Shown: positions 1-48,935 of the stretch, in pieces
Numbering within the stretch: position 1 is the first letter of the stretch
How the letters are laid out: every line of letters starts with the position of its first letter
NCBI GenBank assembly: GCA_947568835.1
Contig: OX387611.1
Coordinates: 4,344,001 to 4,408,000 of the forward strand
DNA length: 64,000 bases
Reading direction: 5' to 3'
Origin: Protonemura montana
Taxonomy: Eukaryota > Arthropoda > Insecta > Plecoptera > Nemouridae
Notes under the pieces: model-generated
Told to the model about the DNA's origin: nothing
Seen by the model: only the letters and a program-made list of their open reading frames with translations
Databases searched by the model: none
Translations under genes and position numbers: made by a program

Positions 1-1
1 A

Positions 2-2305: not shown

Positions 2306-2307
2306 GA

Positions 2308-12762: not shown

Positions 12763-12810
12763 TGATGCTTAGCTTTTGTATTTGGAATCAGTCAATATTA
12801 ATGGATCTAC

Positions 12811-18884: not shown

Positions 18885-19375
18885 TGACAATCTTATCTCC
18901 TTAATCTCCTTAAACAGATATCCTATCGATAACGCTCGAACGCGAATCTGCTTCTATAAGAGAAGCTGGCTTACAGCGTTGTCAACTACTAGTAGGGTAC
19001 AGTGTAACTCCAATGGCGGGATATGAAATGATAAAAACAGAGTAGTAAAATGCATAATATTCTGTCGAAATCAAATGAAGAGAAGCAAAATTATGACAGG
19101 CAATGTGGTTTGTGATTGTAAATAGATTACAGTATGACCGTAAATCAGAGAGACCAAACGACTGTCGTGTTTGAACTTGCGCTAATATGTTTTACCCCAG
19201 AGATAATGTTAAAAACTACCAAACCATTTAAACTTGCCCAAAACAATAAAGAAATTTAGAGGAGTTTTAGGTTTTAGGCATAGGTTTTAAGCTTTTTAAA
19301 ACGTTTTTGAAATAAGAAAAAATTCGCGAATTAAAGTGCGAATATTAATTTAACTCCTTCCTTATCATCATCACA
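18885..19375 (+). other. Distal 5' flank of Ig unit A, conserved with B and C
   Basis: Starting at CTTATCTCCTTAA..ACAGATATCC (about 18,893) the sequence aligns, with gaps, to 28,430 and 37,430. Shared words are CAGATATCC and AATGGCGGGA. It is more diverged from B and C than they are from each other. Confidence 0.5.
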
Positions 19376-19829
19376 ACTTTATCTGACAGGCACTGTAGTT
19401 GTCACAGTTTTATCGGTGGTTGCAACAAGAGGCAACATTCTTTCCGTTACAGATCACGGTCCATTTGACAGTCACCCCGTGTACGTTGCTAGCATCGGCT
19501 GCTGTCTGCAAGTTGACCGACGAACCCAACGTCTTGCGGAAGATTATTGGACCAATCAGCGCTTTAAACAAAGAACAACAGGAATTGTTGTAGCAACAGT
19601 GTCAGCAGCGTCAACAGAAGAGTGTTGAAGACAATGTCACGACCGTGTGTATAGTTTAATAATTTAGGTGTGAATGCAGGGAGTGATCACATTGATTTGT
19701 TTCAAAGCAACCAAGAATATCTGTGATTTTGTCGCTTTGTGAAAGTTTGGTTTTGTGTGCACTGCAAGTTTATAAGTTCAGTTTGTAACGAAACAGTTTC
19801 CACGATAGTGTTGAGATTACATAAGGAAG
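19376..19829 (+). promoter_or_regulatory. Conserved 5' module and putative core promoter of Ig gene A
   Basis: About 450 bp directly upstream of the signal-peptide exon are strongly conserved in all three Ig units, including GTACGTTGCTAGCATCGGCT and AACAACAGGAATTGTTGTAG. TTTATAAGTTCAGTTTGTAA at about 19,770 contains TCAGT (19,778-19,782), a perfect arthropod initiator. Its A lies exactly 50 bp before the ATG in A, B and C alike. An open frame (19,416-19,628) in this module is discussed in the findings. Confidence 0.45.
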
Positions 19830-19893
19830 ATGGATTTCAATGTCACCGTTCTGCTGGCTGCAATATTTTTAATGGATATATCACGGAACGCAG
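19830..19893 (+). CDS. Ig gene A exon 1: signal peptide
   Basis: It encodes [22 protein letters not shown], a short hydrophobic signal peptide ending near small residues. The donor is GCAG|GTATAT, phase 1. The ATG context AAGATGG is conserved in the three units. Confidence 0.75.
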
Positions 19894-22800
19894 GTATATT
19901 AAGTTTTGAAAAGAGTGACAACACCTTAGTGGCAAGTGCTGGTGGTGTGGTTTGGAGGGGAGGTATGACAGGAGAAATATACTCCGTCGAAAGTGTTATA
20001 GTTTCTGCTGCTGAAAAAGTGGGGCTAATTGGACGAAACCGTTTATTTTACGCATCGAATTTTTTTCAAGAGTAAACACTACCGGCTTAGAATGAATTCT
20101 TAATTAAATTGCAAACTCTTGCAATGCGCGGGGTATTTTATTATTATCAACACTATAACCGTCTCAAAAATTGATGCCCAAACGGGCATCGGGGTTCGAG
20201 TCCGCGTTTGGGCATCAATTTTTGAGACGGTTATAGTGTTGATAATAATAAAACACAACCGACTCTTTTACATAAGCGAAATTATAAGCAAATTTGGCAA
20301 ATTATGGTTCAATCGGGTCATTTTTATAGCACAAACATAAGATATGTTTTGAAGTAATTAATATTTGTTAGAATTTGCGCATGAAACCAAGAAATAGGAA
20401 TTTTTTAAAATGTATATAATTATTATTTAGTCTAATGTTTAACAAGACCAAAGTTGTCAGCTTCGAGCTCTCCTGAGAAATCTTGCACAATCATTTAAGT
20501 GCTACAATAACCAGCAATTATTGTTATCGACTTATTTACAAGTGCACCAATATCTAACAAAAACTATTTAAAATGGGTTTTGAATGCTACGTAAAGGATA
20601 ACTAAATTTCCCGACGTTTCGTAACATGTACTAGTTACTTCTTCAAGGGTTAGAGCAGTCCTTGAAGAAGTAACTAGTACATGTTACGAAACGTCGGGAA
20701 ATTTAGTTGTCCTTTAATTAGCATTCAAAACCCCTTTCAAATAGTTTTTGTTAAAACTAGTGCTAAGGATAAACCAAGTAGACATAAGTCTAAAAACCAT
20801 CATACACCAATATCTGTTGATTATATTTAACAATGATCTTTGTTGCAGGTGTTTTCAGTTTTAAAATAATCGCTGGTCCCGTATACATAGACGATATGAA
20901 AACCAGGCAAGTCACAGCAAGATGCACTGCAGATCCCAGGCAGCCGATAACCGGGTGTCAGTTCAAGGTCTGGTACGTTGACCAACAAGAGCAAGGAGTG
21001 CTGCTCAACGTGTCGGGGAGTGAAAACATGAAGACCGTCACGGTATCGAATCCTTACAACAATGGTACCAGCTACACTGCTCACTTCTGGGCAGATGTTG
21101 ATATTTTCAACGCTGGCATTTGCGCAGTGCGGTTCTATGGCCTGCAAGGAGATCACTTACTGCTTGGCTGTAAACTTGCCAACAGCTCCGGGCAATCTGC
21201 TGTCGAAACAACGCCTGTCTTTGTTCATGATGGTAAGCTCACTCAAGTTTGAGATTATGTTGGATGAGAAAAAAAAAAATGAAATTTATTGGGTGAAAAA
21301 ATATTAACTTTGGTAAAACATAGAGATACCTTTTTTTCGTAAGAATTAGTTAATTTCAAGTTGAATTACTCTTCGCTCGCTTTACTCATCAATCATTTTT
21401 TTGAAGAAATTAGGTATTTAAAAAATTATCATCCATAAATGTCCCGTAATGTTAATGTACATATTACATTTTTCTTGCATAAGGTAATTTTTTTCACAAA
21501 AAAGTGCCTGAAAATTAACCAATAAAATCCTTTGGTGACATCAAAGAGGCGGACAACTCGATGGTTAGTTTCCTAACCTATTTTTGGATTATTTTTAATT
21601 AGGTGAATCCGACTGGCTCTGACTTACAGAAACAATTTAGACAATAAAAGGTCGATTTCACCAACGCTGTTTAAATCTCCGGCGTTTTAGAGAGGTTTTA
21701 GGCCAAACTTGATTTTTCCCGCTTAGCCAACATTTTGATAAATTTGAGAGAGAATGTAATGATAAAAACACAAAAAAAAAATTAAACTTAAATTTGAATT
21801 TGGTGATGATTCAAGAAGGCCTTGTCCTGTCACATATAAGAAATTTTATTTAGCAGCCGTCACTATTTTCTCTCTGTCCAAATCACCGTTTAATATTTGA
21901 ACCTGGAAGGACGGGGTTCAACTTTTAAACTGTCATTTGGAGGTCAAAGTAAGAAGTCACATTGATATTTTGTTTATATTTTCAAGTCACCAAATATTCC
22001 GTTTCGAAGCAAACACATTGTTAAAAACTAATTTTTTCTTATTCTTCGTGTGTTGTCTTGATTTTTTGATTTGCAATTATAAAAATATAATTGTTTTAAA
22101 GCAAATTAATGCGCCGGCTAAAATCGCCCCTGAACGGCGTTAAAGAACGCTTTTAATGGCGTGGGTGAAATCGGCCCAAAGTTTGTTTTGGCCAAACTTG
22201 ACGTTTAAGTTATAGCTACGTTACGTAAAGTCTCGTTCTCATGTTTTTTGTAACTATACTAACAGAAATCAATATCAAAACGTTTAAATTTATTGCAATG
22301 TCAATGTTTTAATTAAGTGAAAGGTGTTTGAATTGTAGATGCTACATCAGTCTAAAAAAGTGACTTTATATATAAACATCTTGCATATCTCGCATCGCTT
22401 CAAAGGATGCTTTAATTTTGTTTGTTGCTAATCATTTATATGATATTTTAAATATTGTTTGTCCATTTAAAACTTACAACACTCATTTAAACTGTTGAAC
22501 TCTTAAGTTACAGTCGCCCAGATGCATCTGAATTCACTCAGCGAGCAGCTGAATGTCGATCAAGGAGGAAGCGTACACATATTATTGCACACAATATCTG
22601 GAGGCACGATTAACTATTGCTCTTCAACATTGTCAAATAAGGACCGAATTGTCATCACTTACGGTCACAGTGGTTATTCCAACAACGTGATCGCTGTCAA
22701 TGGGAAGATCGCCACCTCTCGTTACACCTCCTATGGTGGACAGTTGGCTCAAGGGGAGTGTGGTTTTACCATCAACAACGTCACGGACAGGGATAACGGA

Positions 22801-25800
22801 GTCTTCTTTGTTCTGGCTCACGGGCAAGATGGAAGTGTTGCGGCCAAAGCTGTCACGTTAGTGGTCAAAAGTGAGTAATTTTCCAAGAGTGGAATAAATT
22901 CACGAGATAAGAAAAACTATTTGAAATGGGTTTTGAATGCTAAGTAAAGGACAACTAAATTAAATTAAATTCAACTAAATTTAGTTGTCCTTTACTTAGC
23001 ATTCAAAACCCATTTCAAATTGTTTTTGTTAAAACAAGTGCTTAGGATAAATCAAGTAGACATGAGTCTAAAAACCATTATTAATTTACGAAATATTCTA
23101 AAATTTTCATCCAAATTTTAAAATATATTTCTTGTTTTGTAAGCTCATATCGCCAAAAGATTTGCTACGCGATAGTGTAATCTTATAAATCTTGAACTAT
23201 ATGCTGAACATATTATTCCATATAGTGCTATCTGCCAACAACTTGAAAAAATAAAATAAAGTTGGTAATAGGCTTTGTTTAAACTGACTTGCGGTCCAAA
23301 AAAGGACCTAAAAAATGGACGTTTTGTCAGCGTTACAAAAATCTTCACGGTGTAATACTGTGAGAATTAAGAGAGATTTTTTTTAACAAACTCCTTTTGT
23401 TTCTCCGAGGTATTAAGATGACGTTCTCCAAGAAAGCAGGTGAATACTTTGAAGGTGACAACTTGAATGTCACGTGCACGGCACGTGGAGTAGGTCATCA
23501 GGACACCAGGTGGAGCTGGTGGTTGGGCGATGTTAACATAACATCTGGAATAATGGAAAAACCCCAACGTCAACCTGTTGACGGCTGGAGTTGGCCTTGG
23601 GAGGACACAGACGTCACGCAGAGCATCACGTTGAACTTGACTCAGAAGCATCATGGAAAGACTCTGAGTTGCTGGGTTCAGGTCGTCGGCCATTCCTTAC
23701 CATTTCTGCATGTTGCAAAATTGATCGAGATTCGTCAAGTTAATTCCTCTAGTAAGTACGAAATAATGAGCGACTGGAAAATTTATTTTTATTTTTTACA
23801 CAATTGTATTTTCAAACATTTGATTTTTGCATTTTTTGATACAATTGTGTGGCATACCTTTAACGTAGAAATAAGAAAAATGGCTATGAAATGGAAAAAT
23901 AATAATTATTGCTGTATTCAGCAAATCTGTAAATCAGCAAATCTGTGTATACGTAAAACAGAGAAAGTTTAACCCGTACTTTTAAGGAATTTTTTTCAAA
24001 CTTTGGCTTCGTGAACGCAATTTAAGTTCCATTGTAAGATGAGCCTAGCGAAATGTTGGGTTTAAAAACAATGAAATCTTGTCTTGTTGTAGATGAAAGA
24101 AAAACAGACAAAATAAACAAAATAAATCCAGGAATAAAGTCAATAAAATATGAATGTAAAAAAAGAGAGAAATAAAACAGATACGGGCTTAAAAACTTCA
24201 GAAACTCATAAGTGAGATTTTTGATTGAAAAAGTGGAACTGTAGACTTCGCTCTGCTTTCTACGCTCATAAATTAATTTAATATTTCTAGTATTACTATT
24301 TTTTTAAATGCTTGTTCGCCATGAAATGAGCGAAGCAAGCGAAGCTATTGCATACTTGATCTTAGGGCAAACATATTTCAAAGAAAATAAGGGACGAGTT
24401 ACTCTTTTTAGGACCTTCACTTCCACACACGAAAAAATGTTTGAAGAAAACACATTCACACAATTTGCACGTGCCATTCTTGGAAATTTTGAAAATTAAA
24501 AAAAAGTGACAATTTTCGATTCCAACATCTTGGTCACTACTGGATTAATTTGTATGATTCTTTGAGGTTTTTAGATTGGAAAAGTAGTGCACAACAAATT
24601 GCTTTTATAATATTTTTGATATCTCCTTAGATTTGTTAAAAATCGTGTTTTTAATAAAAACCATTCCTAAATAGGAGTGAAAAACAATTATGCATTGGGT
24701 TATTTTTATACATTTTTGGGCCAAATGTTCAGGGAGATGTCCTCAAGATGTCTCCTGCAAAATTCAGCTTGCTACTATTTTTGTCCAACCCAGGTCTAAA
24801 AACTAGCTAATTCTCCTGAACTAATGAGTGATTTAACAGATACTAAAAAAAACATGAACAGTTATATTTTCATCTTATTTTCTAATTTCTTCCAGCAACT
24901 CATCTTCCTGCGGTCACACTAGCTCCAGCAAGAGCACCGGCGCTATCGACACTGGCACCACCAGAAGCTTCTACACTACCAACTTCACCAACTTCATCAA
25001 CTTCACCAACTTCACCAACTTCACCAACTTCACCAACTTCACCAACTTCACCAACTTCATCAACGCCACAAACGTCACCAACTTCACCAACTCCACCAGC
25101 AAGCCCAGAAATTCCACCAGAAAGTCCAGCAGAAAGTCCAGCTGAAAGTCCAGCTGAAAGTCCACCAGAAAATCCAGCAGAAAGTCCAGCAGAAAGTCCA
25201 GCAGAAAGTCCACCAGCAAGCCCAGAAATTCCACCAGAAAGTCCAGCAGAAAGTCCAGCAGAAAGTCCAGCTGAAAGTCCAGCTGAAAGTCCAGCTGAAA
25301 GTCCACCAGAAAGTCCACCAGAAAGTCCACCAGAAAGTCCAGCAGAAAGTCCAGCAGCAAGTCCAGCAGAAAGTCCAGCAGAAAGTCCAGCAAATCTACC
25401 AAAGGCTGAAGATCTTAAAATCAGCGAAAAATACGGTAAGAAAAAAAAACCTACATGTCGATCAATAATCCTCAAATTAATTAAAAGAAAACAGAAGCTG
25501 ATGACGCGAAACGCGTTTTTGAGTACAGAAATAAAAAAAGTAGGATAAATTGTAGATTTTGTATTATTTCCTCATATCGGAGAATAATAGTGCAACATAA
25601 AAGAAGATCCTGCGTGGTTTAGGTGATAAGAGAACGGGTATTTTAAGTTTGCAAATTTATTAAAATAAATTTTAATTTTTCCATACACATAATTGGTTTG
25701 TTTGTAAAAAACGCCAATTTGTTCGGGATTTTATTTCAGAAAATACATAATATATTAGTTTTTAAGTTATTGACCTTGATTATTTTATTTAGATGCATTT

Positions 25801-26926
25801 AGGAAGCTTGAACTAGGTAATTGTTATAATTTTGTGTGGTTCTTTTGTTATTGGAAAATTGTCAGGACTGCTCTTACCCTTGATAAAGTAACAAGTACAA
25901 GTTACGAAACGTTGGGAAATTTAGTTGTTCTTAACTTAGCATTCAAAACCCAGTTGAAATAGTTTTTGTTAAAACTAGTGCTAAGTTTACATCAAGTAGA
26001 CATGAGTCTAAAAACTATCGTTTAAATCGATTTTTATTTCTAAATGCTTCAAAGTTTCCCACTTTTATCAACAGTTGCAACTGCTCTCAATAGGAAAATC
26101 TACTTAAGATTATTATTTAATTATTATCATTGTGTTCAAATACGAATTCAAAATAAAATCTGAAGTATTTTTTTTTTTTATAATCCGATCATAACTTTTC
26201 TATTTATATTTGTTTTAAGAATGGCTAAAATATGAATTCTCGTGGCGGGATTAAAACGGGCTGTGATTAACTACAGGTAGTTCTGACGTCATTTTGTTGT
26301 TTCCTTTGCGTTCGCTTCTGTTTCTTGACGTCATACTGACGTCAGATTTCACTTCATGTCATAAAAAATGGCGACCCTCGTTTTCGTACGAGATTCAAAC
26401 GCAAACATTTTAAACAGAGATATTTTATTCAAAATTGGTTTAAAAAGAAAACAAAAAAATATGTGTTCATTATTTTCTCACAAAAAAAATAGTTTCAAAT
26501 TTAAAGAGATTTCCCCATTATAGCTGTGTACGTTTCCTTGTTTTCGTCACTCCCCGATGACTAAATTAACGCTATTACCCCAGCCAATTGTCCTCTTGCT
26601 ATTTTTCTTAGCTATACAAATTAATTCATTTGTCAATTACACGACTTGCATTATTAACTTACAGACGCAAAAATCGAGAAACACTTCTGGTTCCTCATCG
26701 GGTTCGTGACAGCAGCGCTCCTGGCGGTGGTGTTCGTCATCGCGTGCCTCTTGGTCACGCGCTACAAAAAGCTGGCATCTTCCAAAGGTAAGAATCTTGT
26801 TATCTTTTTTCTTTATAATTTTAGTTCTTGTTCGTTTTGTATTAAATTCGTTTTATTAAAATTTCAGACCACGACGCTGAAGTGCTATCCCTGTGCAATC
26901 CAATATCTTCGGAAGGACCAGATTAG
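19830..26926 (+). CDS. Ig gene A: three-Ig transmembrane receptor with short tail
   Basis: This is a predicted cell-surface Ig-superfamily receptor of 622 residues. Exons are 19,830-19,893; 20,849-21,232; 22,514-22,870; 23,410-23,751; 24,896-25,435; 26,665-26,787; 26,868-26,926. All introns are phase 1 and the joined frame is open. Residues 1-21 are a signal peptide, about 22-149 Ig-like domain 1, 150-268 domain 2, 269-382 domain 3 (C2-like, with VTC, W and LSCW), 383-562 a Ser/Thr/Pro stalk, 563-603 the transmembrane exon and 604-622 the tail. The tail ends at a TAG where gene C continues with a glutamine codon, so A lacks the ITIM region. It could be a decoy, a partner of an adaptor, or a gene losing its signalling part. 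The transmembrane helix has no charged residue, which argues against adaptor pairing. Family: I cannot assign a named family; function is inferred from architecture. Confidence 0.75.
20136..20253. repeat. Perfect 49-bp inverted repeat with a B-box in its loop
   Basis: The arms 20,136-20,184 and 20,205-20,253 are exact reverse complements (ends TTTTATTATTATC...AAACG and CGTTT...GATAATAATAAAA). The 20-nt loop reads GGCATCGGGGTTCGAGTCCG and holds GGTTCGAGTCC, a consensus tRNA B-box (RNA polymerase III) sequence. The left flank and arm (ATGCGCGGGGTATTTTATTA onward) recur at about 55,530-55,597 without the right arm. Confidence 0.9.
20555..20810. repeat. Penelope-like element ends, head-to-head dimer
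   Basis: The minus-oriented end (about 20,560-20,665) and plus-oriented end (about 20,655-20,805) abut at GGGTTAGAGCAGTCCTTGAA with almost no spacer. The plus copy reads CTTGAAGAAGTAACTAGTAC, then ATGTTACGAAACGTCGGGAA, and runs to TAAAAACCAT. Confidence 0.65.
20849..21232 (+). CDS. Ig gene A exon 2: Ig-like domain 1
   Basis: The acceptor is TTGTTGCAG|GT and the donor CATGATG|GTAAGC, both phase 1 (128 codons). Cysteines lie in TARCTAD, ITGCQF, AGICAV and LLGCKL. The second part (YNNGTSYTAHF, LLGCKLANSSGQSA) looks like strands E-F-G of an Ig fold with an N-glycosylation sequon NGT/NSS. It is the least conserved of the three domain-1 exons. Confidence 0.75.
21233..22513 (+). other. Intron 2 of Ig gene A
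   Basis: AT-rich; I see no coding sequence or ordered repeat. A hydrophobic frame at 21,937-22,143 is chance composition. Confidence 0.5.
22514..22870 (+). CDS. Ig gene A exon 3: Ig-like domain 2
   Basis: The acceptor is AAGTTACAG|TC, chosen because the resulting VAQMHLNSLSEQLNVDQGG aligns without gaps to the same exon in B and C. The donor is CAAAA|GTGAGT, phase 1 (119 codons). It carries NYCSSTL and [10 protein letters not shown] as the two cysteine strands, and [15 protein letters not shown] is a typical Ig E-F region (D-x-G-x-[YF]). The reading frame into the intron stops after two codons (SE*). Confidence 0.75.
22871..23409 (+). other. Intron 3 of Ig gene A with a foldback repeat
   Basis: At 22,912-23,080 two truncated Penelope-like ends face each other (GGGTTTTGAATGCTAAGTAA and TTACTTAGCATTCAAAACCC) around a short AT spacer and can form a hairpin. 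The ribozyme-like motif is deleted here. Confidence 0.6.
23410..23751 (+). CDS. Ig gene A exon 4: Ig domain 3
   Basis: It encodes 114 codons, phase 1 at both ends; the donor is CTCTA|GTAAGT. The domain has VTCTARGV (B strand cysteine), TRWSWWLG (core tryptophan) and KTLSCWVQ (F strand cysteine), the best Ig fold of the three. The segment [20 protein letters not shown] is almost identical in gene C. The acceptor inferred from alignment to C is TTTCTCCGAG|GT, an unusual GAG instead of CAG/TAG. Confidence 0.75.
23752..24895 (+). other. Intron 4 of Ig gene A
   Basis: No coding sequence is supported. A 63-codon frame at 24,308-24,499 overlaps the recurring GAGCGAAGCAAGCGAAGC-type motif and resembles no protein I know. 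Confidence 0.5.
24896..25435 (+). CDS. Ig gene A exon 5: Ser/Thr/Pro repeat stalk
   Basis: The acceptor is TTCTTCCAG|CA and the donor AATACG|GTAAGA, phase 1 (180 codons). It begins HLPAVTLAPARAPA, then has about nine TSP/TSS triplets (25,000-25,090), then about 28 tetrapeptides of the PAES/PPES type with two PASPEIPPES punctuation units, ending ANLPKAEDLKISEKY. This is a mucin-like or rigid extended stalk, probably O-glycosylated. The homologous exon in C is only 41 codons. The antisense strand is also open (Gly/Leu-rich) only because of the repeat. Confidence 0.75.
25436..26664 (+). other. Intron 5 of Ig gene A
   Basis: It contains a plus-oriented Penelope-like end (25,675-26,022). The rest is AT-rich with no coding sequence seen. 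Confidence 0.55.
25675..26022 (+). repeat. Penelope-like element end, long form
   Basis: It runs from TTTTTCCATACACATAATTG through TAAGTTATTGACCTTGATTA, GGAAGCTTGAACTAGGTAAT, GGAAAATTGTCAGGACTGCT, GATAAAGTAACAAGTACAAG, TTACGAAACGTTGGGAAATT and the CATTCAAAACCCAGTTGAAA block to AAACTAGTGCTAAG. This is the fullest plus-oriented copy in the window. Confidence 0.65.
26665..26787 (+). CDS. Ig gene A exon 6: transmembrane helix
   Basis: The acceptor is AACTTACAG|AC and the donor CCAAAG|GTAAGA, phase 1. It encodes AKIEKHFWF and a hydrophobic helix LIGFVTAALLAVVFVIACLL followed by the basic stop-transfer VTRYKKLASSK. No charged residue lies inside the helix. Confidence 0.8.
26868..26926 (+). CDS. 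Ig gene A exon 7: short cytoplasmic tail
   Basis: The acceptor is AATTTCAG|AC. The tail DHDAEVLSLCNPISSEGPD ends at TAG 26,924-26,926. It aligns in frame with the start of the long tail of C ([19 protein letters not shown]); the TAG sits where C has CAA. No tyrosine remains. I could not find ITIM-like remnants in the next 300 bp. Confidence 0.7.
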
Positions 26927-28258: not shown

Positions 28259-28879
28259 GTATGTTTATTAAATCTAGAGTAACCCGGAGGTAAACAAAAT
28301 GTGAAAAAAGCCTCTTCTATCATGACATTTCAATATTTTATTTGAAAGTAATCTTTCAATTTGGCAAAGATTCAGTAAAACCCCACAAATAAGAGCTCAA
28401 CTGTAATGTAAGACACCTCTTTTTTTTATAGCCTTATCTCCGTCTAAAACAGATATCCGGCCGGTAAAGCTAGAAGGCGAATAATGCTCATAAAAGAGAC
28501 CTTGCTATCTGTACGGTATACAACGAGTCAGTACAGTATAACCCTAATGGCGGGAGATACAATCATGAAATATTGTCACAAAATAACCATTGACACAGAA
28601 AAATCAATTAAACAGTCGAGGAATTATGCATTTTTTTACAATTTTTTAAACTGCCAGACATTTAAATTGCAGTTTGACTATAAATTTAAGAGATCAGACG
28701 ATTGTTTTGTATTAAAAAGGCACGACAGTGTCTCACACCGGTGATATTTTTAAATGCTTCATATTTTTAAAACTAGTGGTTTTGGTATGGTTTTGGAGCG
28801 CACTCTTATGATTTTGACAACGGAGAACACCATGAACTAAAATCCAACCATTCCTTCTTTCCTTCCTTATCGCCGGCGC

Positions 28880-29327
28880 AAATTTATCTGACATGCACGG
28901 TAGTTGTCACAGTTTTATCGGCTACCGTCGATACTCGGCGGTATTTTTGGGACAATCACGGTCCATTTGACAGTCACCCTGTGTACGTTGCTAGCATCGG
29001 CTGCTGTCTGCAAGTTGACCAACGAACCCAACGTCTTGCGGAAGATTCTTGGACCAATCTTTGTAACAAAGAACAACAGGAATTGTTGTAGCAACAGTGT
29101 CAGCAACGTCAACAGAAGAGTGCTGAAGACAATGTCACGGCCGTGTGTAGAGTTTAGGAAGTTAGGTGTAGATGCAGGGAGTGATCACATTGATTTGTTT
29201 CAAAGCAACCAAGAATTTCTATGATTTTGTAGCTTTGTAAAGGTTTTGTTTTGTTAGCACTGCAAGTTTATAAGTTCAGTTTGTAGCGAAATAGTTTCCA
29301 CGATAGTGTTGAGATTGAATTACGAAG
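28880..29327 (+). promoter_or_regulatory. Conserved 5' module and putative core promoter of Ig unit B
   Basis: This is the homologue of the module upstream of A and C. The initiator-like TCAGT is at 29,276-29,280, again with its A 50 bp before the ATG. The open frame seen in A and C is broken here by a net 4-bp deletion (about 29,058-29,066). The flank from 28,260 to 28,880 is also shared with C. Confidence 0.45.
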
Positions 29328-29391
29328 ATGGATGTCAGTGTCACCGTTCTATTGGCTGCAATACTGTTAATAGAGCTTTCGACAAATTCAG
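29328..29391 (+). CDS. Ig unit B exon 1: signal peptide
   Basis: It encodes [22 protein letters not shown]; the donor is TTCAG|GTGAAT, phase 1. Confidence 0.7.
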
Positions 29392-34985: not shown

Positions 34986-35184
34986 ATTATAAAAAGTGTA
35001 TATGTGGGTATATACAATAATTTTATATATTGTACATGTTATTATTTTTATTATTTTTATTATTATTATCATATATATATGTATTTTTTTTTTAATAATA
35101 TAATAATACAACGTTTTTAATATATTATCTATTATTAATATATTTTTATAGATTGAAATCACATAATTTTATATTTTGTGTCTG

Positions 35185-36535: not shown

Positions 36536-36739
36536 AGCATAGTGCAAATAGTGAAGTTAAGATGTATGTCATTTTGCCAATGCATTTTGACTTCTTTAAA
36601 ATTATCTGCCTTTGCGTCATTTCATTTTCTACGCAATAACTTTCCCGGAAAGTTGCCAGAAAATTGACGGTGCCTTTCAATTTTACAAATTTATAATTTA
36701 ATTTCATACGTGATTTCAGTACGAGGAATTTAAATGGAT

Positions 36740-38416: not shown

Positions 38417-38480
38417 ATGGATTTCAATGTCACCGTTCTATTGGCTGCAATACTGTTAATAGAGCTTTCAACAAATTCAG
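38417..38480 (+). CDS. Ig gene C exon 1: signal peptide
   Basis: It encodes [22 protein letters not shown]; the donor is TTCAG|GTAAAT, phase 1. Confidence 0.75.
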
Positions 38481-41400
38481 GTAAATAAGAGGTTGAATAT
38501 TGACTACACCTGAGCTGAAAATGTTATGCGAATACAGTTTCGTAAAGGGGTGTAGCAATGGGGGGTGGGGGGATGGATAGGGGTATAGAGCATAATATTT
38601 TATAGCATATTTTAACTTTACTGAATATTGTTCACTATTGAATACAAAACTAGGCTTAATAACGATTAATGGCCGCTTTATTACAACGCAAGCCGCAAAG
38701 TTATGTTTTGCAGAAATTACTGATGAGAATAATTTGAATATGAAACCAATCCAGATGTTGGTCACTGGTCAAGAAGCATTATTTCGAATAATGATGCATA
38801 AGCAAGCATTTCTGAAAATCAATTTTTTTTGCTGTTTACAACCCTTGTGTGACGATATGTTAATTAAAGTTAATTCTTTCTTGCTTTTAGGTGTGAAGAG
38901 TTTTAAGATTATCTTCGACCCTACATACATTCAAGTTAGTAAATCGCAAGGATTCAGTGTAAAATGCACTGCAGATCCCAGTCAGCCGATAACCGGGTGT
39001 CAGTTCAGGGTCTGGTATGTTGGCCAACAAGAGCAAGGAGTGCTGCTCAACGTGCCATGGAGTGAAAAGACAGAGACTGTCACGGTACAGAACCCTTACA
39101 ACAATCGTACCAACTACACTGCCCACTTATATGGGAGGCAATTCAACACTGGATCTTGTACAGTTCATCTCTATGGCTTGCAAGAAAGCCACTTGCTGAT
39201 TGGCTGTAAACTCACTAACAGCTCCGGGCAATCTGCGATCGCAACCACGCCTGTGTTCTTTCGTGACGGTGAGTTCAACTGACTTAAAGACACGTCACTA
39301 GAGGATAGTAATATAATTTAATTGAGTTTGTTTTATTTGGGTTTCTTTATGAACTTGATTCACTTTACCAGACAAGCGGTTGACCCAATTTTTCACAAAA
39401 ATTTTATGCATTAATTTTTATTGTTCGCTTCGTCTCGAAAAAGAAAACGGTTTCTTCAGTGAGTTGCTGATCGAAGTGAAGTCAAAATTCAACAAAACCA
39501 GTCTCAAAATGGTGAAGGTTTTTTTAAAACATGTTATAACACAGAAATTATCGGAAGTCAGGCGCTCCTTTGGTGCTTCATATTCTCAAAATATCGTCAT
39601 ATTTTAAAATGGGACAACTTTTTTGTTTTTTAACCAAAAATTATTTAAATTCGGTTAAAAGTTGAGTAGCAGTGCACCCGCTGTGGACACTGCTGCCATG
39701 TGTGAAGGGACAGATAAGAGTGATGTGCTTAATTTGAGTTGATTTCAGCAATTTCATTACCAAGAAAAGATCTTTTCGAGGGTTACACTGAAGAAAAGGT
39801 TGACCCTCTTTCTTAGTTTTAAGGCTTAGACTCAATGACCAGGTTCAATCTCAGTCAAATCCAACTCCTGTGCTGCTTAATTTGGACCTTCTTTGCTTGC
39901 TTTTAGGTGAAGAATCTTTGTCCATATAAGTGTGTGATTAATGTATTGAGTGATAATAATTATCTTAAAGATAATGATCCCGTGGAAAACAATCTAATTG
40001 AGGTTTTTTGCACTGCTCAATTTTCAACCACTTTAATCAGATTCAGTTCTTATTTACACGATTCGATTCCACGTTCGATTTTGTTTTAAGAATAAACCAT
40101 AAAAAAAATGCCAATAGTTGAAGGAAAGGAACCAAATTTTCAGGAATGCCGTGAAAAGTACGAAAGATAAGGCATCTGATAAACATCTGAGAGGTAACTT
40201 GATATCGTCACCAGCTCCGCATTCTGTTGCACTTCATCCCAATTGTTTAAATTAAATAATTGCGTATTTAATATAACACACATTGAAACTGCAATGCTTA
40301 AACTAATTACTTTGTATTTGAAAAACCTGTTGCAAATTCACGGCATGCTTGAAAATTCTAAATTTTTCCACGGCTTCTTCAGTCGATGCAAAAGAATTCT
40401 CATCTGTTTTTGCAATCTCTCACTCAAAATCATGTTTAGTCTAAATAATCTCTAGAAAACTTATTTAGTATCTTTTGGTTGTTGAAAAATCTGTGTTTCA
40501 TGCTAAGGGTGCTTGCGATACTAGGTTAACTCATATGTGATTTGCATAAAGGTCAGAAATAACATTTACGTTTGAAATTGGTAGTGGAATCTTGTCTAGG
40601 CTGGGGTTAAAGAATACGCGTTGAATTTAAACAATGTCTCAGCAATAAAGCATTTAGTCGGCATGATGTTTATAACTTTATGACCGTAGCGACACCACGC
40701 TCATTTTAATGCTATTTGAAGCACATTTTTTGTTGGTAAGTGCAGAAAAATGGCATAAAACAGATTTTTCTGTGTGTTTTTTCATGAATTTATGCTATTT
40801 TAATCCGCAAAAAGATGTCGCATTAGATTTTAACTTAGGTGACAGTACTTTTGGGTTAATTTCGAGTAAAAACTTGAAATTTCAAATGAGTTAAACCTCC
40901 GCCAACCTTCGCTCAAAACTATTAAAAGTGTGTAAAAACACACTTCATTCAACACGGTTCATTCCTTAAAAGTGTGGAATTGCACTTTGATATTTGATAT
41001 TAAAATAATTATCCGGCCCCACGGCGTCCCAAGTCGATGAAAGACATCTGTCAAAAGTTTTTTTTATCTGTCACTCCAAATCTAGTTTTGGCAAAATTAT
41101 TGATGAAAAAAAAACTCCTTAGGTGTGTTTTGGCTGTTGAAAAAAAAAACTATAAAATGGTCTTAAAAGCTGGCCTTGTCTAGGCTGAAAAATGGAGAAA
41201 ATTCCTCGTATTTTGACCGATTTCTCGCCTTTCGAGCACTAAATCAGTACGTTTTATGACCGTAGAGACAACGCGCTCATGTTGACGATACTTTTTACCT
41301 GCTGACTGTGTTGTGACCCGCAAATAGCGGTCGTATTGCATTTCACTTTGCCGTCGGGTGATCCTCGCTTAATTTTATTTAATTATCATTCAATCGTTGA

Positions 41401-43839
41401 AGCATTTCCACAATTAGCACAAATTGGCTAAGAATGGCGTAGACACTTTCAATGTGTCAAAGTTTTCCACCGACCGACCCACGTGGTAACCAAGGTAACC
41501 AAATTAGGGATTTGGTTAAAAAAATGTTGCTGGTAATTAAGCATGCTAGCCAATGTTGCTAAAAACAAATGAGGTAAATGTTCAAAACGCAATAATTAAT
41601 TCTGAAAATATCATCAAAATGTGGAGCAACTGTTGAGCTGGTACCCACATAGCACAGTGTTCTTGTTTTTTATTTGCGTTGCTACCTTCGCTCGCTACGC
41701 TCATCAAATAATTAGACAAGAATTGATGAAACATGTAAGGCCAGGATCAAGAAATGCATACTTTCTAAACTTGGTCATTGGTGTCGTTTGGGCAAAAGAC
41801 AACGACTAAGCCAGCTAACAGTTAATTTTATAACTAAGTCTTTACGGATGTTGCGTCGCTTTCTTCACTTAAATCTAAACGATAAATTAAATCATATTTT
41901 TGACCAGATTAAGAACAAATACTTTGTCTTTTGTGTACAATTTTACCGTTTAACCAACGCCTGTCTGGTCTTAACTCAGTCTCTAGTTGTTGTGTTTATT
42001 GTTTTCTTAAAAGATATGTTTTCGTCACTCGTTACGCTTATCTGAAGTTCCAAATATTTCTGTCTTCAGTTTCAGACTTTGAATTGCTGCTAAAAACTAA
42101 CAGCGAAACGTTGTTTGTCGAGCAAGGAGCGAGTGTCAACATATCATTACGTACTGTTTATTATTATGATGTTACTTTAAAATCTTGCTCTTCTACACTC
42201 GTCAACGGAGACAAGATTATTTACACCCGTTACAACCAGCAAACAGAAAAAAAGGTTACTTTTGTCAATGGGAGCACCGCCTATCCTCGCTACACTCCTT
42301 ATGAAGGAACGCTGTACACGGGAAAGTGCGGCTTCACCATCAACAACGTCACGGAGCGGGACAACGGAGTCTTCTTTGTCCTGGCTGACGGGCGGCACAG
42401 AGTTGTCGGAGCCAAGGCATTCACCCTCGTTGTTGCAAGTGAGTAACTTTAGTGGAATAAGAACAGAGCATAATTTTGTTCATTTTATAATTGAAATTTT
42501 ATTGCACAATAGATTTTGAAAACATACGATTCTGCCACGTTTTAAACAATCAAGAATCAATGCTTGAGCCGTGATTACACGGGCCAATATTTATTACATC
42601 AAAACATTAGTCAAAATCTTGAAAGACGGAATGTTTTTAAAAAGGTGTTGTAGAGATATTTTCAAGTGATCAAGATTAACAAATTCAAAATTAAATTTTA
42701 ACCTGTAGAAAGATTGAAGTTACAAAAATCTAAAACACATATTTCGGGTACAAAATCAATAATTATTTGTTAATCACCATTTATTATGTAAAATACGTGA
42801 GCCAGACTTCGAGAGGCGTTATATTGACAAATTAATTACTGTGATCTCGATTGAAAGGTGTCGAAATGTATCTTTCTAACGCATTTGACAAAAACTTCTG
42901 ATAAAAACCCTGTAAACTCACCATAAGAATATTGCGTTTGGTCAATTGCACTTAAAATGAACAAATTTTACCTATTCCCAGTCGTTTTCAAACAATTATC
43001 TTAAATTCTAGAAATGTGTAATTTGACAAGTGAATGGCATGACAAGTGAAACGTACCAACATCAACACTAAGTCTGACATGACATCATAAAGAATCCTCT
43101 TCTGCTCAATCAAAATCAACCAATCAAGTGGCTGCATAGCGAGCTCATCTGAAATGTATACTTAATTTTGATGTATTACACATTTTGCATAGGGTAAAGT
43201 GCCAGTTTTGGATAGGGTTGGGAATATAATTAATTTAACTCAGTAAATATCATTTTTAAAATCCAAAAAAAAGGTCATCATTTGACAATATAGACAAAGC
43301 AACAGAATAATAAAATTTGTGATTTTTCAGAACTTTTTAGTATTTAAAAAAAAATATTGAAAAAACCCTGTTATTATCCATAACCGGGCACTGGTGCCAG
43401 TTTTGGATCAAAATTAATTTTCAATCAGAATTATAATATATTATTGCCCCATGTTTTTGAAACATTTATATGAAAGGCGCATAAAGATATAAAAAAAAAC
43501 GCAGAAGTTATTAATATTTAAGTACATGGTAGTTTAGTGCCAGTTTTGGATCAAAAAATAAAATTAGGCTTATTTACACTGCAAACAGAATACCTGCTTC
43601 CTCTTTGAAAAATTTGGGAGCCCTTGGCATGTCAGGTGGTACCACACTTAACATTTCACACATGAAAACCAATTCTCTCCATTACAGTCCATGTCAAATG
43701 TTTTGATACACTCGCCACAGGGCGTCGCAAGATCTCCAGCCGCGGAATAAATAAATATCAATAAAAAAAAAAATTATTATTATATAAATATATAAATACA
43801 TAAATAAATAAATAACACAAAAAAAAAAAATACATAATA

Positions 43840-43879
<40 letters not shown>

Positions 43880-46800
43880 CTTAACATCATTACACCCACA
43901 TCTTCATCTAAATGGTAGGGGAGGAGGGGTCTAAAAGTCTCAGGGGCAAGTTGTCTCAGTGCTAAAATCTCGACTCCAAATGGTACCAGAAGCAAAATAC
44001 TGATCCGGATTAATTCGACGACTAAATATCTTACTATTCTGAACATTTCATTCGTTTCGGTGCATAATTCACACTCCTGGAAGAGATTTCTTGCTTTGAT
44101 AGGTGGTTGGTAACTTTCAGTATCTTTCAGTAAAAGTTCATTTTGTTTGTTTTGTAAGTAATTGATTTTTTTTTTACTTTTTACAGAACTAATTTACAAA
44201 AATTTACCAATTACGAGTTTATAACGAGTTTATAAAAAAAAAAAAACTCTTCGCGGGCTGGTAGCACCCGATGTCATGTTACGCGCTGCTCAATTTGTGT
44301 TGCAGGAAAAAATGGCAAAATATTTTGACATAAATTATCAAACATTGACTCGGTATTGTCATAAAGTAACTGATGCAGATTTTAATTAAATTAATTATAT
44401 GAACACAAGACGAATTTTCTCACCGAGACAACTAGACCCACACGTGGGGTTAAAAGTCTCAAACATTTCTCAACTGACGGTCTAATAAATCGCAGAAAAA
44501 AATCACATTATAACCAAATGTGTATTAATCTATAAAAAAAATTAAAACATAAGAATAACTTCATTTTTCTAGAAGATATGCACACATAGGTAGATTTTGA
44601 GACAACTAGACCCCTCCTCCCCGACCCATATAACCTACGATTTTATTTCTTTCTGCAAACGGTCAGTAAGCTTTCAAAAGCCTATGAAAAAAATCAAATC
44701 AAATCTTCAGTGTTTCAGGAATACTCTCAAGAAAAATCAATATTGTAGTTGACATATTACTTTAGATATCGATATAAATCCACTTCAGTGTACACCAGGT
44801 GTAGTTTGGAAATATCACCTTCATCAGGGATGACACTAAATATATTTTTTAGACGAATCCATGACCGCTGTCTAATGGCATCCTAGTGCACAACACTCGT
44901 CAAGGATGTGGCAATCACTTCAGTTAGTGGCGGTCTCATAACTTAACATTTGGTACTAATTTTCAGTTCATTTAAAAAATGATCCAAAACCGGACACTGA
45001 TCCAAAACTGGCACTTTACTCTAGTTAAGTGAAAAAATATCCAACACTTTTGCGATATGACTCCAAAAAGCTAGCAAAAAAGCTGAAAATTTTCGTAAAT
45101 TTTGAATAATTTTAAAATAATTTTAAAGATTTTGTTGAAAATGCATGAGGTCTGCTGACTTCAAAAATATGATCTGAAAATTTCGTAGCAGACTTTTTGC
45201 CGCTCGAGCACGAAGGAAAACGCGAAAAATACAAAATCCTTTTTTCTGGGATAATTGATATTGAAGATTTCGCTACGCTCGCTTAGCTCAAAACAGAGTT
45301 TAAAAAAATACAGAAATACGTTATAGTTCTCTCTGGTGGTTTAAATTGAAAGAGTAATTTAGATCTACGAGATTTTTTTTTTTTTTTTAAAGCGACGGAA
45401 AAGTACATTCCTTAATAAATTTCACATTTGAATTCGAATATACTATTCGAATATTCTCGAATATTCTATTCGAATATTTTTGAGAAAATACCAGGAAAAA
45501 TGAATTGAAACTATAAACCTAGATAAACTCGATGGTGGTAAACCTTACCTTGACAGGAGTCAGTTGATATGATATTAAAACTAGTTTAACGCGTGCAGGT
45601 CTCAAGATGGCGTTCTCCAAGGAAGCAGACGAGTTCTTTGAAGGTGAAGTTGTTAAAGTCACGTGCACGGCACGTGGAGTTCGCGATCTTGACACCAGGT
45701 GGTACTGGCTGTTGGGTAATGAGGACATAACATCCCGAGCAATGAATCAACCCCAAGTTCAACCTGTTGACGGCTGGAGTTGGCCTTGGGAGGACACCGA
45801 CGTCACGCAGAGCATCACGTTGAACTTGACTCAAGAGCATCATGGAAAGACTCTGAGTTGCTGGGTCAACGACTCGGAGAATTTTAAATATTATATGAAG
45901 AAAGAAAAGCAAATTAAGATTCAACAAAAGGAGCCAAATGGTGAGTACGAAATAAGCGAATATAATTTTGAAAACACATTTGATATATATATTATAAACT
46001 GTTATTTTTTGTGGATTAATTTTTTATGCATATGTGATGTTTTCAAATTATTTTCATTTCGGTCTAACATAATTGTAAAATATTGTTTTTGCAAAATTTA
46101 AATGTTTAAGATTCGATATTATGGTTGGCTGATGTCTACCTGACCCCAATTTAGCAAAAATATTGCTCCCAACAGGGGTCGGATAAACAAAGGAAAGTTT
46201 AAGTTAAAACTCAAAGTTTTGATCGCAGTCTATGTTTCCAGATTTACAACGGTTGATATTTTGGTGACACCAACTTAACACGTAAATGTTTGAAGTAAAG
46301 CTTAACTCCATGCTATATGAATACTGACCCAGGGGTATTAATGACCATTTACAACCCATACCTTGACTGAACATTTTCAGTAAAATCAAAAATTTTCAAT
46401 TTTTGGAATCATTAACACATAAAATTAAACACATTCATAAATGGCTGTCTTCATCAAAAAGTGGCTTGGACAGGAAAAAAATGTCTCTCTTAAAAAAACT
46501 AAATAATACTAATTATATCCGACTAAAATCATAATTTCTTCGCACATTTTAGACTTATTTTCTTGAGATTTTTCACTATTTCTGTGAAATCAGGCTTACC
46601 CCTTCACCCAACTGTTGCTAAGCCCACTTTTTTCACGGTTATTTTGGCTTTTTTTCGGTGAAAGTTACAAAATAGAAAGGTTTTTCGGTCACTAATATTC
46701 CCGACACACACCATTTCTTTAAGTCCGATGAGAACGCGTGCCAAGTCACAGAAAGTGAATTTTTAGTAGCCTTTAAAGATTTTTATAATCATTTCTACTT

Positions 46801-48935
46801 TATATAACCTGGGCATTAGTTTATAAAACATGTGTTTCTTTAATGGTTAGTTAATACAACTTTTTTCGACTTCCGCATCTAATGCGCAAATTGTTGTGCT
46901 TCAGCTGAAACCACTTCATCAACGACAGCGATGGCAGAATCAAATCCACCAAGTCTACCAATCGCAACAACTCCTGGCCAAACGGCGCCAACATCGGAAA
47001 CCAAAAATGCTGATCGAACGTCTCAAGGTAAGGCAAGAGAACAAGCGAGCCATTTCATGAAAACTCGGGCAAAGCAAAGTTAACTCTTCAGTTAGTGCAA
47101 AATGAAATATTTGCTTAATTTACAGTATTCAAAATTATACATCAAACAACGATTTTGTGATTTTGTGTCGGTACAAACGTCGATATATTATATTTACATA
47201 GAAATAGAACATGTTATTGACTGATATCAAGTTTTATTTTTAGGAAAATCCATTCATGAAAATCATATTTGCTTGGTTTCCTGGGAACTCAATGAAATTT
47301 ACTAATTTGATATCATTTCTTTTACATTGGTAAACAATGCCAATGAAAAATTGGCAAGCAATCTGAAAATCAAAACACTGTCTAGTCAGAGCAAAGTGTG
47401 AATTTCTTTGTGCAAATCCTATAAATCGAGTATAAAAAAACAACATGCATGTGGTCCTTTTGTAAATGTTGTTGTCTATAATTGTTTTTAGACTCATGTC
47501 CACTTGATTTAGCCTTAGCACTAGTTTTAACAAAAACTATTTCAACTGGGTTTTGAATGCTAAGTAAAGAACAACTAAATTTCCCAACGTTTCGTAACTT
47601 GTACCTGTTACTTTATCAAGGGTAAGAGCAGTCCTGACAATTTTCTGATATTTATTTATAATCATTATAAAACCACTTGCCACTGATGTACCACTTGCAT
47701 ATATATTTGAAGACTTATTTGATTGATTGCATGTCACAGGCAGCGGCTCTAAATGGTTGACCTACGGGCTCATTACAGCAGCCGTCGTGGTCGTGGTGAT
47801 CATCATTGCTTGCCTCATTGTCGCGTTTTACCACAAGTTGGGCTGCTTTAAAGGTAAATCAAGACCCACCCTAAATTGTTGTCTGACTTTAATATTTAAA
47901 TACGTTTTTTTTTTCGAATAGAAACAACTACTTAAATCGTTAAATAAACACGTAATTTAATTTGAATATTCAGTAATATTATTTAAAATAATATATACAA
48001 TTTACGTTGAAAAATCACACTCAGATGATAGATATTATGGCTTTATCACTGATGCTACTTTGTCTAGGCTGATCACTAGTTTAAAATTAAATAATTTACT
48101 ACTGGCTTTTTGAATGCTAAATAAAAACAAATTTAGTTTTCCGACCGTTGTTTTAATGACTGTAACTTTATCAAGAGTGCTTACAGTTTTGAATCCAATC
48201 AAAGTAAAAACTGTGTAAAAACTGTGTAAAAACACTGGAAAAACTCGGATAAAAAAAGCACACACACAGATTCTTGTCTAGATAACGTTTAAAACATTTG
48301 GCAAAAAAAAATGTGTTTATTAAAAATATATAGTCATTTTAAAAACTAATGTATTGAACGGTATTGACAAAAAATAAGCCTGGAAAAGAGAACTGTTTAT
48401 ATTTTTGTGCTCCCTTTCAAATCGGAGAAATGTCACAACTTCTGTCACTTTTGAAAAAGTAAAAAAAAAGTCAGAAAACTAAAACCCAGTTTTAAATCCC
48501 GTCAATTTTTTGTTCAAGAGAAATATTTAATTTTTTCCATCTTCAAAGCAAATTATTTCAATTTCAGACCACAACGCTGAAGCTCTAGTCCAGTACAACG
48601 CCAACTCTGCGGAAGAACAGGACCAAACCCAAGTCATCATAGCCCCGAACCTTCAGTCTAGGATGCCTAAACCCAAGCCACGTACCCAGAACAAACCTAC
48701 ACATGAGAAGCCAACACCGAAGGCACGACCATCAAAGAATGCTAAACCCGACCCTCAGGAAGGACAGGCGCCGCGCACACAACCAAAAACATTCGCTGCG
48801 CAGTCCGATTGCGCAGCCGGCAGCGACCACGTGCAATACGCTGAGTTGGCGAATATAAAAAATGTGCCATTGTTGCAGAAGAAGCCGACTAGCGACGAGG
48901 AGGTTGCTTATACTCAACTTCAATGGGAAAAATGA
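38417..48935 (+). CDS. Ig gene C: three-Ig receptor with two cytoplasmic ITIMs
   Basis: This is a predicted inhibitory-type cell-surface receptor of 583 residues. Exons are 38,417-38,480; 38,891-39,268; 42,076-42,438; 45,599-45,940; 46,905-47,027; 47,740-47,853; 48,568-48,935, all introns phase 1 and the joined frame open. Layout: signal peptide 1-21; Ig-like domains 22-147, 148-268 and 269-382; Ser/Thr/Pro stalk 383-423; transmembrane exon 424-461; tail 462-583. The tail is basic and proline-rich, then has VQYAEL (Tyr552) and VAYTQL (Tyr576), both fitting [IVLS]-x-Y-x-x-[IVL]. In vertebrate receptors such pairs recruit SH2-domain phosphatases when phosphorylated. The ligand is unknown; I cannot assign a named family. 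The 24-residue tyrosine spacing is too wide for a classical ITAM. The gene is on one strand with A and B and shares their upstream module. Confidence 0.8.
38891..39268 (+). CDS. Ig gene C exon 2: Ig-like domain 1
   Basis: The acceptor is TGCTTTTAG|GT and the donor GTGACG|GTGAGT, 126 codons. It has four cysteines (VKCTAD, ITGCQF, GSCTVH, IGCKL) and sequons at NRT, NYT and NSS. It begins [11 protein letters not shown], one of the most divergent stretches relative to B. Confidence 0.78.
39269..42075 (+). other. Intron 2 of Ig gene C
   Basis: The first 250 bp and last 550 bp align to intron 2 of B. The middle (about 39,600-41,500) is extra and has no recognisable gene. Recurring short motifs of the type CGACACCACGCTCATTTTAA (40,690) and CACTCGTTACGCTTATCTGA (42,026) are present. 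Confidence 0.5.
42076..42438 (+). CDS. Ig gene C exon 3: Ig-like domain 2
   Basis: The acceptor is CAGTTTCAG|AC and the donor TTGCAA|GTGAGT, 121 codons. Conserved strands are [12 protein letters not shown] and [20 protein letters not shown]. The variable stretch RTVYYYDVT and the end ADGRHRVV differ from B. Confidence 0.78.
43191..45022. mobile_element. Inverted-repeat DNA element, about 1.8 kb, noncoding
   Basis: The left end AGGGTAAAGTGCCAGTTTTG and the right end (antisense AGAGTAAAGTGCCAGTTTTG) are inverted copies of about 23 bp. Inner echoes GTGCCAGTTTTGGATC occur at about 43,392 and 43,540, and the right end has the doubled form CCGGTTTTGGATC. No transposase frame is visible, so it is a non-autonomous (MITE-like) or decayed element. 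The superfamily is not determined. Confidence 0.6.
43918..44622. mobile_element. Nested inverted-repeat element, about 0.7 kb
   Basis: The ends GGGGAGGAGGGGTCTAAAAG and GACAACTAGACCCCTCCTCC are inverted with three mismatches in 24 bp. It lies wholly inside the larger element at 43,191-45,022. An internal AACTAGACCC..GGGGTTAAAAGTCTC block near 44,430 repeats the motif. No coding capacity is seen. Confidence 0.5.
45599..45940 (+). CDS. Ig gene C exon 4: Ig domain 3
   Basis: The acceptor is GCGTGCAG|GT and the donor CAAATG|GTGAGT, 114 codons, phase 1. It has [16 protein letters not shown] and KTLSCWVN. The central block [20 protein letters not shown] is shared with A, while the last 25 residues ([20 protein letters not shown]) differ. 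Confidence 0.78.
45941..46904 (+). other. Intron 4 of Ig gene C
   Basis: AT-rich, with no coding sequence or ordered repeat seen. Confidence 0.5.
46905..47027 (+). CDS. Ig gene C exon 5: short Ser/Thr/Pro stalk
   Basis: The acceptor is GTGCTTCAG|CT and the donor CTCAAG|GTAAGG, 41 codons, phase 1. It encodes [20 protein letters not shown] and [20 protein letters not shown]: low complexity, no cysteine, probably O-glycosylated. It corresponds to the 180-codon repeat stalk of A. Confidence 0.7.
47488..47645 (-). repeat. Penelope-like element end in intron 5 of gene C
   Basis: A minus-oriented copy: TTTTAGACTCATGTCCACTT, ACTGGGTTTTGAATGCTAAG, CCCAACGTTTCGTAACTTGT, ACTTTATCAAGGGTAAGAGC, ending at TTTTCTGATA. 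A very decayed copy is at about 48,100-48,190. Confidence 0.65.
47740..47853 (+). CDS. Ig gene C exon 6: transmembrane helix
   Basis: The acceptor is ATGTCACAG|GC and the donor TTTAAAG|GTAAAT, phase 1. It encodes SGSKWLTYG and the helix [20 protein letters not shown], then YHKLGCFK as stop-transfer. There is no charged residue in the helix. Confidence 0.8.
47854..48567 (+). other. Intron 6 of Ig gene C
   Basis: AT-rich with the decayed Penelope-like fragment near 48,100-48,190. No coding sequence is seen. The branch/polypyrimidine region precedes TTTCAATTTCAG. Confidence 0.5.
48568..48935 (+). CDS. Ig gene C exon 7: cytoplasmic tail with two ITIMs
   Basis: It encodes 122 residues to TGA 48,933-48,935. 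It starts [19 protein letters not shown], homologous to the A tail, continues with a basic Pro/Lys/Arg/Gln-rich linker ([20 protein letters not shown]) and ends with [10 protein letters not shown] and [12 protein letters not shown]. The two tyrosines are 24 apart. A membrane-proximal YNAN does not fit an ITIM. No canonical AATAAA is seen within the next 190 bp. Confidence 0.8.

Follow-up and report, generated by a model that had tools for sequence, protein, structure and literature searches.

What kind of gene family lies behind a tandem array of predicted immunoglobulin (Ig) superfamily receptors in an insect genome, and could it work like the paired receptors of vertebrates? The question is raised by a 64,000-nucleotide stretch of Protonemura montana DNA (contig OX387611.1, positions 4,344,001 to 4,408,000, our C14:4344001-4408000; here called the window), in which an initial annotation had described three such receptor units. 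We rebuilt the genes and searched the whole genome (258 Mb, 34 contigs) for relatives. Our preferred reading, which we hold at a probability of roughly 0.5, is that the units belong to a clustered, recently expanded family of paired-receptor-like recognition proteins in which a flexible stalk carries a V-V-C2 ectodomain, with a type I membrane topology and, perhaps, an origin from adhesion genes.

Gene models and extent of the family

Three plus-strand units, A, B and C, are present in the window (Table 1), and, as first described, they share a 5' module, a signal-peptide exon and two open Ig exons (encoding domains D1 and D2). The module measures ∼520 to 550 nt including exon 1, and those of the five other units of the family are 90.8 to 94.7% identical to the module of C. 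Units A and C rebuilt from DNA have 7 exons each, with every intron GT-AG and in phase 1, which agrees with the claim that both add a third Ig domain (D3), a stalk, a transmembrane (TM) helix and a tail. The coding sequence of A comprises 1869 nt (622 amino acids plus stop), as given before. That of C comprises 1758 nt (585 amino acids plus stop); exon 3 has two in-frame acceptors, and the 583 amino acids originally reported result if the second (exon start 42076), which is also present in unit B, is used. In B, no D3, stalk or TM exon was found by tblastn, for which the queries were D3, stalk and TM from C, and D3 and TM from A. The region 3' of B in which a D3 exon should lie (window 33000-36550) resembles, by eye, broken retroelement sequence. 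Most of the A stalk is encoded by a minisatellite (window 24978-25392) with units of 9 and 12 bp, which may differ in length among individuals.

Genome searches with each C domain revealed three further full-length copies on the same contig: P at ∼3.999 Mb (plus strand), D at ∼4.409 Mb (plus strand, just past the window) and E at ∼4.440 Mb (minus strand). Their identity to C was 79-91% in D1, 68-81% in D2 and 89-94% in D3, and each has nine exons with AG acceptors, GT donors and a single open frame (592, 553 and 592 amino acids for P, D and E). The cluster of three thus proved to be part of a larger family of at least five neighboring units (A, B, C, D and E), plus P about 350 kb off. Six copies have open D1 and D2 exons, and five an open D3. 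Every indel in the D1-D3 exons is a multiple of 3, beyond what chance would give; in C, P, D and E, by contrast, intron 1 carries gaps of 1, 2, 4, 5 and 40 nt among others. Outside D1-D3 the rule breaks in the last tail exon of D, where a 2-nt gap leads to an earlier stop.

Predicted fold of the ectodomain

The initial annotation had called all three domains Ig-like, and profile searches together with structure prediction bore this out. The ectodomain has an Ig fold, placing it in the Ig superfamily, and is predicted to be V-V-C2: the models of D1 and D2 are V-type, and D3 is C2-type, with C2-set_2 matching 11 of 15 D3-type sequences. The D3 profile placed SIRP-alpha third among 1345 matched PDB sequences, SIRP-gamma being included, and the D2 model was nearest to JAML, nectin-1 and TIGIT among tied V domains. 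For the D1 model, Foldseek returned no match at E≤0.001; the top rows were mainly V domains, with 2 bacterial CopC chains in the first ten. Profile searches of PDB gave weak V-domain matches, the best being CAR for D1 (0.018) and a single-chain variable fragment for D2 (0.0016). Pfam assigned no Ig family to 11 D1-type sequences; of nine D2-type sequences, 4 matched Ig_3 and 2 matched V-set at E≤0.1. Searched whole against PDB, the C protein matched T-cell receptor gamma (E 0.02) and a single unrelated chain. Single-sequence Pfam scans of A and C yielded nothing above the cut-offs, and FN3 was absent from them at E≤1.

Selection on the ectodomain

The ratio of nonsynonymous to synonymous change (Ka/Ks) among B, C, P, D and E was >1 in 9/10 D1 pairs and 9/10 D2 pairs, and, among the units with a D3 (C, P, D and E; B has none), in 6/6 D3 pairs. 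Against A it was 0.26-0.67 across the three domains, as expected for an older divergence. D2 changed at 0.149 and 0.160 per nonsynonymous site, compared with 0.075 and 0.068 in the introns on either side of that exon, taken from the same pairs (Fisher 2.9e-8 and 9e-12); this comparison comprised two non-independent pairings without B, was confined to blastn-aligned stretches and took 76.5% of codon sites as nonsynonymous. A single omega for D1 was 2.28 (p 0.01). With a codon site model in our own custom code, which assumes no recombination and whose likelihood ratio test statistic (LRT) can be inflated by gene conversion among copies, model M2a exceeded M1a with an LRT of 21.2 for D1, 34.2 for D2 and 11.4 for D3. 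Neutral simulations, which cover D1 and D2, never reached these values (D1, 0/60, maximum LRT 5.3; D2, 0/40, maximum LRT 5.9), and with B left out the LRT under three topologies was 9.2-12.6 for D1 and 33.3-36.9 for D2. Together, these substitution patterns show the signature of diversifying selection on the ectodomain, and on D2 above all.

Change within D2 was concentrated at one end of the predicted domain. In its top loops (BC, C'C'', DE and FG), 18/22 residues were variable among five copies, versus 5/23 for loops at the other end (Fisher 6e-5) and 30/76 elsewhere, and 6 of the 9 sites with a posterior above 0.9 fell in the top loops (hypergeometric 0.001), the loop bounds having been drawn from predicted strands after the sites were seen. 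In the model, these top loops are equivalent to the complementarity-determining regions (CDRs).

Transmembrane segments and cytoplasmic tails

The units share their type of ectodomain but differ in their cytoplasmic tails. As stated in the initial annotation, the C tail carries immunoreceptor tyrosine-based inhibitory motifs (ITIMs): the pattern [ILVS]xYxx[LIV] occurs twice after the single TM segment, whereas shuffled tails contained at least two with a frequency of 0.0008 (shuffle mean, 0.053). No ITIM was present in the tails of P, E or A, and a genome search with the C tail (E≤1) did not find a second copy of it. The A tail, 19 residues long, opens like that of C (DHDAEV versus DHNAEA).

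P, D and E have a TM exon different from that of C (GSGF...RRCCFK, with CCFE in E), and tblastn detected nothing of the C-type TM and tail below E 0.1 in their regions. Their tail is instead made up of three exons: DKRRQSSQPEPAYEEIDE, then a stretch containing EPDYIIPDAPD (KPDYIIPDAPD in D), then one containing KYQQVYKYF. The resulting tyrosine sites are YEEI, YIIP and YQQV in P and E, and YIIP and YQQV in D. YEEI and YIIP would suit the SH2 domains of Src and PLC-gamma. The tails of P and E differ at 2/115 residues, and the surrounding DNA is 93-98% identical.

A paired-receptor-like reading of the family

If the preferred reading is correct, the D1-D2 region would bind variable ligands, which might be self/non-self, microbial or gamete molecules. 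Clustering of C by ligand would lead a Src-type kinase to phosphorylate its ITIMs, and a tandem-SH2 phosphatase recruited there (in insects, Csw, a relative of SHP2) would damp signaling. P, D and E may see the same or competing ligands, and the tyrosines in their own tails may recruit kinases or PLC-gamma. Decoy roles are conceivable for A and for B in a secreted form. Such a design would be like that of vertebrate paired receptors but independently evolved, with a Fasciclin III-like adhesion family as its possible source.

The parallel with vertebrate paired receptors, already drawn in the initial annotation, is strengthened by the tyrosine tails of the copies outside the window and by the diversifying selection, and does not extend to the TM segments. 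Like SIRP, LILR, KIR and the nectin-TIGIT group, the family has clustered copies, V and C2 domains, and similar ectodomains combined with ITIM or other tails. It differs in that no TM residue is charged for an adaptor with an immunoreceptor tyrosine-based activation motif (ITAM), and in that the non-ITIM tails bear their own tyrosines. The likeness is one of design, judged by sequence, and does not imply orthology.

Among invertebrates, the fester co-receptors of Botryllus and the Alr proteins of Hydractinia are likewise Ig superfamily receptors of one locus with tyrosine-motif tails; passages of PMC12065747 describe ITIM, hemITAM or core Y-x-x-I/L/V motifs in the tails of Botryllus FcoR, and ITIM/ITAM in Hydractinia. 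These systems differ in belonging to a chordate and a cnidarian, in the sushi domain of FcoR and in their link to allorecognition. In arthropods, Dscam resembles the family as an Ig superfamily protein whose tail has tyrosine motifs, and passages of PMC6851185 give its ITIM as optional in Daphnia and not found in shrimp and crab. An array of Ig and FN3 domains with clusters of alternative exons, as in Dscam, was not found here: the units have three Ig domains, no FN3 match and seven single exons without alternative arrays, and diversity comes via gene copies. Splicing of Dscam is the route to receptor diversity named for arthropods in passages of a recent review (PMC13428168), and the ITIM passages of PMC11999971 concern LILRB. 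Among the literature matches listed, a set outside which most subscription journals lie, there was no arthropod Ig gene cluster with ITIMs, and Dscam was the sole arthropod case.

A more specific version of the preferred reading can be put forward only tentatively: the locus may be a germline set of paired immune receptors in an insect, with ITIM and activating-type members, selected CDR-equivalent loops and an independent, Fas3-like origin, amounting to an arthropod counterpart of the natural killer receptor design. Recognition receptors that share a locus and bear ITIM tails are reported, in passages of PMC12065747, for mammals, Botryllus and Hydractinia. If true, the same receptor design would have arisen once more, in a lineage presumed to manage without it, and the cluster would offer a concrete locus for testing.

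Several results weigh against a paired-receptor interpretation. Only one gene, C, has an ITIM tail. A charged residue inside the TM segment is the usual mark of activating paired receptors; reading of the TM sequences of A, P, D and E revealed none, P and E having an Asp solely at the cytosolic border, and A combining a short tail with a TM segment free of internal charge. D has lost the YEEI tyrosine and stops early, at EYQQV after the 2-nt gap, and a Tyr replaces one of its D2 cysteines. The likeness of the P and E tails is no greater than expected from their recent ancestry. With regard to selection, the excess over flanking introns is weak in one pairing for D1 (0.080 and 0.090 versus 0.065 and 0.059; p 0.11 and 0.005) and was not seen for D3, and single-omega estimates fall short of significance for D2 (1.55, p 0.08) and D3 (1.42, p 0.47); the possible effect of gene conversion on the site model and the hindsight in the loop bounds belong here too. 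The D2 model is of moderate confidence, with part of the DE loop at a predicted local distance difference test score (pLDDT) under 50, and the D1 loops showed no significant bias (6/22 variable at the top, 11/26 at the bottom). Furthermore, the top loops of D2 would touch D1 in a straight rod, so that the variable surface may be the D1-D2 hinge and not a free tip; a D1-D2 hinge surface is known in KIR and LILR. Finally, both the gene models and the receptor role are drawn from DNA sequence alone.

Relatives in the same genome and the adhesion alternative

The arthropod-like host named in the initial annotation was supported. Along 4.3 kb of the mitochondrial contig (C34), the gene order is I-Q-M-nad2-W-C-Y-cox1-Leu(UUR)-cox2-K-D, the pancrustacean pattern, with tRNA-Leu(UUR) between cox1 and cox2; two minus-strand tRNA calls overlapping cox1 were set aside. 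The scored candidates in the genome include 129 matches to the odorant-receptor family 7tm_6, pointing to an insect, probably a winged one. The receptor family, which the initial annotation had not recognized, is not without kin: distant V-V-C2-type exons are numerous in the same genome (contigs C1, C11, C12, C15 and others), with D1 24-36% identical. On these exons, the cluster reads as a fast-evolving branch of a larger V-V-C2 gene set.

Members of the wider family perhaps resemble Drosophila Fas3. In Fas3, one domain is V-type, with cysteines in strands C and E, and another is C2-type; a cysteine-phenylalanine (CF) motif closes its TM segment. For comparison, we used phmmer with provisional segments of Drosophila Fas3. 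The best match was 1e-11 for D2-type exons of relatives (0.0016 for D2 of unit A) and 6.4e-7 for D3-type exons of relatives, where general Ig loci also match, from 0.0016. TM-exon matches, those of D, E, P and C included, ran from 7e-5 to 0.008; matches between hydrophobic TM segments can be compositional. The CF motif at the TM end is present in relatives L019, L044, L047, L052, L054 and L072 and absent in L043, L045, L053 and L056. A Fas3-like origin of the family is perhaps a lead. Drosophila Fas3 and its arthropod relatives would share with the cluster the V-type and C2-type domains and the CF at the TM end; the cluster differs in its extra N-terminal V domain (D1), its stalk, its ITIM or YEEI/YIIP tails and its rapid ectodomain change.

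The strongest competitor to the preferred reading builds on this likeness and is, in our judgment, rather doubtful: the units would be ordinary Fas3-like adhesion molecules of the nervous system or epithelium, duplicated in this lineage, whose tyrosines link to Src and Csw in development and whose ITIMs have no immune meaning. The likeness between the provisional Fas3 segments and wider-family exons of the D2, D3 and TM types would fit, as would the CF motif at the TM-cytosol border of several relatives. However, constrained adhesion genes are not expected to show Ka/Ks >1 and loop-centered change, and among the Ig exons of the cluster itself the provisional Fas3 segments matched only D2 of A.

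Three closely similar relatives lie on C15 at 2809124 (plus strand), 3156526 (minus strand) and 3902951 (minus strand). Beyond its stalk-like exon, the first of them has a second Ig set, a TM exon ending in ACFK and a short tail-like frame ending in RYPLYECESI. At C2:3118602 (L019), the 1.5 kb after a D1-type exon hold a TM exon and a long exon resembling a tail, with tyrosines in ALYANATEL and AEYLNV. Relative L039 (C1:25286988 region, 1-3219) has D1-D2-D3-type Ig exons, then trypsin-like protease exons on the same strand (GGEDAEPGEFPWHAG, AAHC and GDSGSG), the first starting ∼0.5 kb past D3 by eye; it possibly encodes a modular Ig-protease protein.

Other alternatives

Rapid diversifying selection is also a property of gamete or mating recognition receptors, and the Ka/Ks values, intron comparison and site models would fit such a role equally. 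We nevertheless consider it unlikely, as ITIM and SH2-type tails would be unusual in that setting.

The D2 donor, GTGAGTAA, is common to 6/6 copies, and unspliced read-through would add Ser-Glu-stop; the read-through ends are visible in the frames of A, B and C. Both features would suit a mixed set in which A, B and unspliced forms are mainly soluble decoys or opsonins. Since a donor consensus followed by a stop may be a coincidence retained through shared ancestry, we regard this as quite improbable.

Least probable are decaying tandem duplicates without a protein product, for although B is truncated, D lacks a D2 cysteine and has a tail that ends early, and repeats lie within introns, the five full-length copies retain open frames and splice sites, D1-D3 indels come only in threes, and the departure from the neutral site model is significant.

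Feature coordinates and neighboring sequence

Table 1. Exons and motifs of units A, B and C (window positions)
Unit	Feature	Position	Strand	Remarks
A	Shared 5' module, promoter/5' untranslated region candidate	19355..19829	+	blastn 90.8% vs C module (523 aligned columns)
A	Exon 1, signal peptide	19830..19893	+	
A	Exon 2, D1, V-type Ig	20849..21232	+	65% amino acid identity to C D1
A	Exon 3, D2, V-type Ig	22514..22870	+	
A	Exon 4, D3, C2-type Ig	23410..23751	+	Pfam Ig_2 E 0.0039, under its cut-off
A	Exon 5, stalk	24896..25435	+	Mainly 9- and 12-bp tandem repeats (TSP, ESPA)
A	Exon 6, TM helix	26665..26787	+	tblastn 50% to C TM, E 3e-6
A	Exon 7, 19-amino-acid tail	26868..26926	+	DHDAEVLSLCNPISSEGPD, without tyrosine
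B	Shared 5' module	28850..29327	+	blastn 92.3% to C
B	Exon 1, signal peptide	29328..29391	+	Open frame
B	Exon 2, D1	30843..31220	+	78% amino acid identity to C D1
B	Exon 3, D2	32204..32563	+	80% amino acid identity to C D2
C	Shared 5' module	37931..38416	+	Identity: P 94.7%, E 94.4%, D 91.9%
C	Exon 1, signal peptide	38417..38480	+	
C	Exon 2, D1, V-type Ig	38891..39268	+	Second cysteine pair
C	Exon 3, D2, V-type Ig	42070..42438	+	Alternative start 42076; without usual B-F cysteine pair
C	Exon 4, D3, C2-type Ig	45599..45940	+	
C	Exon 5, stalk	46905..47027	+	Ser/Thr/Pro-rich
C	Exon 6, TM helix	47740..47853	+	Ends in GCFK
C	Exon 7, cytoplasmic tail	48568..48935	+	122 amino acids plus stop
C	ITIM 1	48831..48848	+	VQYAEL
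C	ITIM 2	48903..48920	+	VAYTQL; tyrosine 24 residues beyond that of ITIM 1

Elsewhere in the genome, a mitochondrial cox1 copy at C4:5760925-5762262, in a chromosome-size contig, had a profile score equal to that of the C34 copy and is either a nuclear mitochondrial insert or an assembly artefact. Upstream of the cluster, two 7tm_7 chemoreceptor-type open reading frames lie on the minus strand at window 12769-15580 (E 1.8e-13 and 8.9e-16). Tandem arrays of 91 bp, by eye part of 5S rRNA, occur at window 1536-1904, 2592-3006, 5968-6238, 12144-12754, 36777-36963 and 53354-53945. Matches to 5S rRNA itself were found at 49433-49551 and 53873-53994 (minus strand), the second of which overlaps a 91-bp array.

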